Positions 59,946 to 60,158 of a DNA stretch of 64,000 bases are shown here, piece after piece. The notes under the pieces are model-generated. The model searched no databases. It was not told the origin of the DNA and saw nothing but the letters and a program-made list of their open reading frames with translations. Source of the stretch: Hydra vulgaris (taxonomy: Eukaryota > Cnidaria > Hydrozoa > Anthoathecata > Hydridae); contig NC_088921.1 of NCBI RefSeq assembly GCF_038396675.1, positions 46,887,001 through 46,951,000 of the forward strand. Reading direction: 5' to 3'. Numbering within the stretch: the stretch's first letter is position 1; the number at the start of each line of letters is the position of its first letter. Both the position numbers and the translations under genes were made by a program.

Positions 59946-60158
59946 GATTTCAGTGTAGACATCGTGTATAAGAGTGTATGTTATATTAATAAGAAAACAT
60001 CAAACAATACGAATTCTCTTAATACGTTGAACGTTCAAAAATTTTGTAATATTTTACGAGCTGATGATGCTGGTATCCATAACCCAGTGAAAATTTCTCA
60101 AAATAAATTATTATTTGTATTAAGAGAATTCGTATTGTTTGATATTTTCTTATTAATA
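59946..60158. mobile_element. 213-bp hammerhead-containing unit with inverted repeats between (TA)n arrays
   Basis: 41-bp arms at 59985-60025 and 60117-60157 (ATTAATAAGAAAACATCAAA.. and its complement) differ at one base and enclose the hammerhead motif. The unit is framed by (TA)n on both sides. The arrangement resembles Penelope terminal repeats or small non-autonomous retroelements carrying hammerheads; no coding sequence is present. Confidence 0.8.
60050..60105 (+). ncRNA. Hammerhead ribozyme motif (type I-like)
   Basis: Helix I is TATTTT-ac-GAG paired with CTC-AAAATA. The core CTGATGA is at 60061-60067. Stem II is CTGG/CCAG (60070-60073, 60084-60087) with a 10-nt loop and an adjoining G-T pair. 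GAAA is at 60089-60092. A minimal 2-bp stem III (AA/TT) follows, then U17 at 60096 and C1.1 at 60097, which pairs with the G before the core. Every conserved residue is present. Very short stem III is typical of the Penelope and retrozyme hammerheads, which work best as dimers. Confidence 0.82.

Follow-up and report, generated by a model that had tools for sequence, protein, structure and literature searches.

A 213-bp hairpin unit of Hydra vulgaris, which holds a hammerhead-like ribozyme motif and is set between two (TA)n arrays, is probably one minimal insertion of a Penelope-like retroelement (PLE) into such an array, with two 3' ends of the element placed head-to-head. The unit lies at 59946..60158 of the window, i.e., the whole stretch of 64,000 nucleotides that was analysed (C2:46887001-46951000), and its sequence and coordinates agree with those first given for it. 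The arms of the hairpin are two cDNA ends of one PLE family, facing outwards, separately truncated and joined end to end; one of them carries a 36-nt tail and the other does not (Table 1). Positions on the element are given on a ruler that is one real copy, L016, whose short end is at 2808 and whose tailed end is at 2844.

The RNA fold of the unit contains a 41-bp stem with one interruption (z = -7.6 versus 200 shuffles), whose arms are due to the head-to-head arrangement of the PLE ends. The original prediction had described the motif as sitting in the loop of a long near-perfect inverted repeat with (TA)n on both sides, and both the fold and the arrays were indeed found. The first arm stops short of the hammerhead. 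A frame of 594 codons encoding a Mutator-like transposase (Pfam PF20700, E 1.7e-64) occupies positions 57438-59222 of the window.

Table 1. Features of the hairpin unit and of its borders (window positions)
Feature	Position	Strand	Basis
Left (TA)n array, probable insertion target	59848..59945	.	Census of TA runs >=16 nt in family-A pairs
First cDNA arm, PLE 3' end with 36-nt tail, ruler 2765-2844	59946..60025	-	100% identity to end of element copy L016
PLE reading-frame start inside tail, ATGTCTACACTGAAATC = first codons of L016 frame	59946..59962	-	
Arm junction, one base assigned to neither arm	60026..60026	.	
Second cDNA arm, PLE 3' end without tail, ruler 2674-2808, holds hammerhead	60027..60160	+	97.8% identity to L016
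Hammerhead-like motif, type I order, without closed stem III	60050..60106	+	Covariation, 15 sequences, five PLE groups
Extra base between CUGANGA and helix II	60068..60068	+	Pyrimidine in 15/15 aligned sequences
Left arm of 41-bp hairpin	59984..60025	.	RNA fold; alignment to L016
Right arm of 41-bp hairpin	60117..60158	.	RNA fold; alignment to L016
Right (TA)n array	60156..60203	.	

The Penelope-like element behind the unit

Searching the genome (911,502,276 bases, 15 contigs) with the 213-bp unit gave at least 90 matches, 40 of 979 candidates being scored. At many loci, bases 82-213 of the unit are followed by the reverse complement of bases 1-80, often as outward-facing pairs. For example, a frame (1759-3387) lies within the pair at L009 and stops 56 nt short of the motif core at 3444, while L016 holds two copies in direct tandem, one of them with a frame open over 837 codons; the first ATG of this frame (codon 7) falls in the 36-nt tail. 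Since the frame ends before the motif and an ATG lies in the tail, the layout reads as a stop codon, a pLTR with the hammerhead and a tail with the next start codon; the hammerhead thus follows the stop codon of one frame and precedes the start of the next one in the tandem. The pLTRs are arranged as inverted pairs at 29 loci and as direct copies in L016 and L050.

The product of the L016 frame (P0001) matches a second PLE of the window over both RT (E 1e-16) and GIY-YIG (E 2e-6), and this second PLE is above the Pfam cut-offs for RVT_1 and GIY-YIG. Compared directly with Pfam, P0001 hits neither RT nor GIY-YIG, not even at E <= 10, and the AlphaFold model made from its single sequence (pLDDT 33) is unusable. 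A sequence search of the PDB returned nothing at E <= 0.01, and the phage collection contained no match. Judged from the match to the second PLE, the frame has the RT-then-GIY-YIG order of a PLE with endonuclease. Direct and inverted pLTRs, as well as the optional tail of 30-40 bp reaching into the start of the frame, are likewise present. The link to Penelope elements that had been suspected is supported to this extent: both arms and the motif are parts of an RT/GIY-YIG element (L009, L016 and their relatives).

The second PLE (window 43129-45316) has RT and GIY-YIG in separate frames; its ends are inverted and flanked by (TA)n arrays, with the right end about 30 nt longer than the left. Its pLTR contains ACGAAACATGTC, no CUGAUGA was seen there, and the model built from motif alignment A1 (see below) gives a best E of 1.9, at 44088. 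Furthermore, five matches to family-B PLEs were observed at C9:516495-530021, one of them inverted relative to the other four; open frames of 798 codons hold four of these matches.

Outer ends and (TA)n target

Forty-one stretches were considered (L009-L028, L046-L065 and the window), of which 29 show both outer ends of a family-A pair (the group labels A to E were assigned in this analysis by pLTR likeness). Two of the twelve that were dropped, L022 and L050, repeat L046 and L021, and in ten at least one outer end is not visible (L023, L026, L027, L028, L053, L054, L057, L058, L060 and L061). The second batch consists of 20 of about 60 stretches, taken in listing order from the first ~100 places of the list of matches to a 39-mer of the motif.

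Both ends lie at the standard positions in 26 of the 29 pairs, and 25 of these 26 are mixed, i.e., have one tailed and one untailed end (p = 4e-7 for at least that many under an independent 50:50 choice, with end types assigned by eye). The sole exception, L025, is tailed at both ends. In L055, L064 and L065 one end is away from the standard positions; at L064:6588 and L065:1560 the element gives way to TA-rich sequence at GAAAATTTCTC, which is 3-4 nt beyond the predicted point of cleavage. The pairs from the 39-mer list are the fairer sample, because the query of the first batch held both end types: ten of these 13 pairs have both ends standard and all ten are mixed. In the same way, the nine pairs lying outside the first fetch are all mixed (p = 0.002), and seven of them are absent from the matches listed for the 213-bp unit (p = 0.008). 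The count is slightly weakened by L059, whose short end is ambiguous, and by L013, initially classed as having no tail at either end and later moved to the tailed ones since it retains part of the tail; L062 was counted as tailed though its tail is partly missing. In family B, three of four resolved pairs are mixed (C3; C9 at 8.0 Mb; one inside L052) and one (C12, L089/L071) is tailed at both ends; the four come from six pairs, those at C6 23.57 Mb and C9 0.52 Mb being outside the count.

A TA run of at least 16 nt occurs within the next 60 nt at 54 of the 58 outer ends of the family-A pairs, and in 1.5% of 60-nt stretches drawn at random from the window (n = 5000). Target-site duplications cannot be seen inside (TA)n. 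Synthesis of the (TA)n by the PLE RT itself was considered and rejected: in family B a tailed end is followed by (TA)n at a place where the tandem RNA has other sequence (L068 versus L070), which favours a pre-existing (TA)n target.

Arm lengths, junctions and origin of the two arms

The tailed arm is the longer one in seven pairs and the untailed arm in nine, while both are within 10 nt of each other in nine; in L011 the tailed arm is rearranged, so its length is uncertain. Truncation points range over ruler 453-2775. Of the 58 arms, 27 stop at 2645-2700, a 56-nt stretch upstream of the core at 2709, and four in the preceding 144 nt; the selection of loci for presence of the motif limits arms ending beyond it and does not create this peak. 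Run-off at the 5' end of the RNA would be its simplest reading. A single tailed arm, L047:3729, starts at 2745, where the 3' product of the predicted cleavage would begin, with an uncertainty of the one overlapping junction base.

On the evidence of BLAST ends, 11 of the 29 junctions show an overlap, in ten cases of 2-20 bases, and 18 hold extra bases, up to 34 of them in 15 junctions and 88, 414 and 822 in three long ones. Different ends, either arm being the longer and extra bases at the junction fit two separate cDNAs. According to this reading, the GIY-YIG protein would have cut both strands of the (TA)n array, each cut 3' end would have served as the primer of a cDNA begun at one of two neighbouring start sites on the element RNA, and end joining would then have united both cDNAs. 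The Anolis PLE protein was described as cutting and extending both strands in vitro, with reverse transcription starting at two internal sites, the interval between which is the tail (PMC11167929).

The hairpin could also be a snap-back product, the second arm having been copied from the first after fold-back. Such self-priming was argued for in PMC3846280, for Adineta PLEs and on an antisense template, and the overlapping junctions, some of them palindromic, would suit it. So would the sharing of private variants, at 0.15 per pair within pairs (three in 20 pairs) versus 0.008 between different loci, but this is equally expected if both cDNAs derive from one RNA. Furthermore, a copied arm should bear the same end as the first, whereas the ends of nearly all standard pairs differ; it should also be shorter and always of one type, which the arm lengths contradict, and the extra bases in most junctions are hard to accommodate. 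Self-priming is thus unlikely, and two-site priming from both cut strands fits the one-tail rule better.

The original prediction was that the 213-bp unit could be a distinct non-autonomous family, similar to retrozymes, that spreads as self-cleaved or circular RNA. Two observations agree with this, the short units forming a size class through the peak of arm ends upstream of the motif, and L014 and L015 sharing the same junction. However, junctions vary among the other short units, including L017 (C12) and L018 (C3), which are nearest to the window unit, being about as short and likewise holding one motif: neither has the arm junction of the window unit or that of the other, and each therefore resembles an independent insertion product of the PLE. 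The longer pairs bear the same ends as the short ones. In PMC7229834, the retrozymes of metazoans are short repeats in direct tandem that carry canonical type I motifs, while a non-autonomous tandem or LTR unit is not what the sequence suggests here, the layout being inverted and provided with PLE ends. The idea of a family that copies the unit as such is therefore abandoned as very improbable. Whether the unit is unique, which had been proposed as a check, receives a divided answer: its arms and motif are repeated, while the exact unit was not found again among the matches listed.

The hammerhead motif

The core of the motif consists of CTGATGA (60061-60067) and GAAA (60089-60092), with cleavage predicted after U60096. 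Helix I is made of GAG/CTC (60058-60060 with 60097-60099) and of a distal TATTTT/AAAATA segment (60050-60055 with 60100-60105), and helix II of 60069-60073 with 60084-60088. The full hammerhead core first claimed is thus right for CTGATGA, GAAA and helix I including its distal segment, but U60068 is one additional base between CUGAUGA and helix II, and the first pair of the latter is a G-U (60069/60088). Stem III is reduced to AAUU (60092-60095), which is too short for loop closure in a monomer and could pair between two copies. PLE hammerheads are mostly devoid of helix III, and the type I hammerheads of viroid and newt cleave as dimers (PMC6155905).

A script allowing the extra base and the absence of stem III, with criteria fixed after the motif had been seen, has one hit on the two strands of the 64 kb, the motif itself; first-order Markov resamplings of the window, 40 in all, gave 0.025 hits on average and never more than 1. 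The curated Rfam models report no hammerhead in the window at gathering scores or at E <= 10, and none in four relatives. Some miRNA-like Rfam rows, none of which reaches its gathering score, were set aside as a reflection of hairpins. When four motifs were folded singly, z ranged from -0.9 (window, L076) to -3.0 (L081), the fold of L081 being without helix I.

At three mismatches or fewer, the 39-mer of the motif has 416 matches in the genome (203 forward, 213 reverse) and the reversed 39-mer used as control has none. A 37-mer without the extra base, which detects family-A-like sequences only, has none at two mismatches or fewer. The protein search of the genome, in which 78 of 8619 candidates were scored, gave at least 79 matches, with relatives down to 58% identity, and 55% for one short piece.

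Alignment A1 comprises 15 sequences from five PLE groups, i.e., the motifs of 14 of 20 fetched pLTR stretches and that of the window. L069, L070, L071 and L084 (motif identical to L066) were left out, and L074 (no motif) and L075 (motif partly deleted) are also outside it. The script required a C before GAAA and so missed the family-A motifs, which entered A1 by coordinates. From the 15 sequences, RNAalifold recovered helices I and II unguided, together with one pair (26-47) that is not expected of a hammerhead. The covariation test covered eight pairs, namely all of helix II and, in helix I, the three nearest to the core: both sides have changed in four of them (as many in 4/500 shuffles), and 97.5% of the 120 cells pair, a level reached by 0/500 shuffles and compared with at most 49.2% in slid controls. 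The number of further pair types shows no excess (6 versus 6.2 in shuffles), and the compensatory changes amount to about four events. Helices I and II are thus backed by covariation over these pairs. In the core (hammerhead residue numbering), C3, U4, G5, A6, A9, A13, A14 and A15.1 are present in 15/15 sequences and G8 and G12 in 13/15 each. Between A9 and helix II, each of the 15 sequences has a pyrimidine. Applied to the window, the model derived from A1 scores convincingly at the motif only (E 1.9e-16, next best match 0.3), as expected, the window sequence being in the model.

Core residues, unguided folding and covariation therefore support the predicted hammerhead fold, and the extra core base, kept over five groups in a motif that Rfam does not report, points to a natural variant. 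An extra base in the core has been reported for a viroid hammerhead too (de la Pena and Flores 2001). An origin as a foldback or MITE of a DNA transposon targeting TA arrays, with a resemblance to a ribozyme arising by chance, could invoke the inverted repeats in (TA)n, the nearby Mutator-like frame and the Mutator-like elements targeting TA microsatellites reported in Medicago (PMC4486113), but is hardly credible for repeats that are part of an RT/GIY-YIG element, have two unlike ends and hold a motif covarying over five groups.

Besides these motifs, 14 loci (L029-L042) carry type I hammerheads (RF00163), 12 of them above the cut-off, with sequences of two types; (TA)n arrays adjoin several loci of the CTGAAGAGTCC type. 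The 14 loci possibly belong to another PLE or to a retrozyme.

If the unit is a PLE insertion, the hammerhead is not required to explain it. By analogy with Anolis, it would probably serve to trim tandem transcripts, and may do so only when bound by the PLE protein. The Anolis hammerhead cleaved only with protein and was dispensable for insertion in vitro, and the authors mention that none of the RNA reads ended at its cleavage site (PMC11167929). A more detailed scheme is put forward tentatively, as a serious possibility. Each head-to-head copy would be a single event carried out by a protein dimer on both cut strands of the (TA)n array, with one RT working at a distal and the other at a proximal site of the element RNA, 36 nt apart, hence exactly one tailed end in every normal insertion; (TA)n would be favoured for being the same on both strands, and the variant hammerhead with its fixed extra pyrimidine would work only in the two-protein complex. 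The assignment of each protein subunit to a start site is inferred.

Comparison with known systems

The kind of element, the hammerhead in the pLTR, the inverted copies and the tail are already known. Titles and abstract openings, with few subscription papers among them, contain no report of the Hydra element, of its (TA)n setting or of the one-tail count, which is weak evidence of novelty; a search for 'Hammerhead ribozyme' together with 'Hydra vulgaris' found nothing, and the word Penelope is absent from the main text of the paper on the gapless Hydra vulgaris assembly (PMC12220107).

The window motif has in common with the type I hammerhead of Rfam (RF00163) CUGANGA, GAAA, helices I and II and UH at the cleavage site. 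It differs by the lack of a closed stem III and by the extra base before helix II. As such a hammerhead goes unreported by Rfam, PLE ribozymes may be under-counted. Metazoan retrozymes are also animal repeats with type I hammerheads, but those described in PMC7229834 are direct repeats with circular RNAs, whereas the Hydra unit is part of a PLE.

How PLEs produce head-to-head copies has been left open between self-priming (PMC3846280) and two-strand cutting and extension (PMC11167929), whose later steps are presented as unvalidated. The different ends, arm lengths and junction bases of the Hydra copies bear on this choice, and the abundance of motif matches, joined to two distinguishable end types, turns the question into a count. 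The Penelope families of the rotifer Adineta vaga resemble the Hydra element by their inverted pLTRs, their head-to-head junctions and a tail that is optional at one inverted pLTR; they are described as having a low copy number and some target-site duplications (PMC3846280), in contrast to the 416 motif matches of Hydra. A close likeness is with the Poseidon PLE of Anolis carolinensis (PAc), which also has an RT and GIY-YIG frame, a hammerhead pLTR near the start of the frame (with stems I and II named), a tail of 30-40 nt reaching into the frame and an AT-rich target (PMC11167929). Compared with PAc, the Hydra element is distinguished by its (TA)n target and, in the pairs examined, by a head-to-head arrangement that follows a near-constant one-tail rule.
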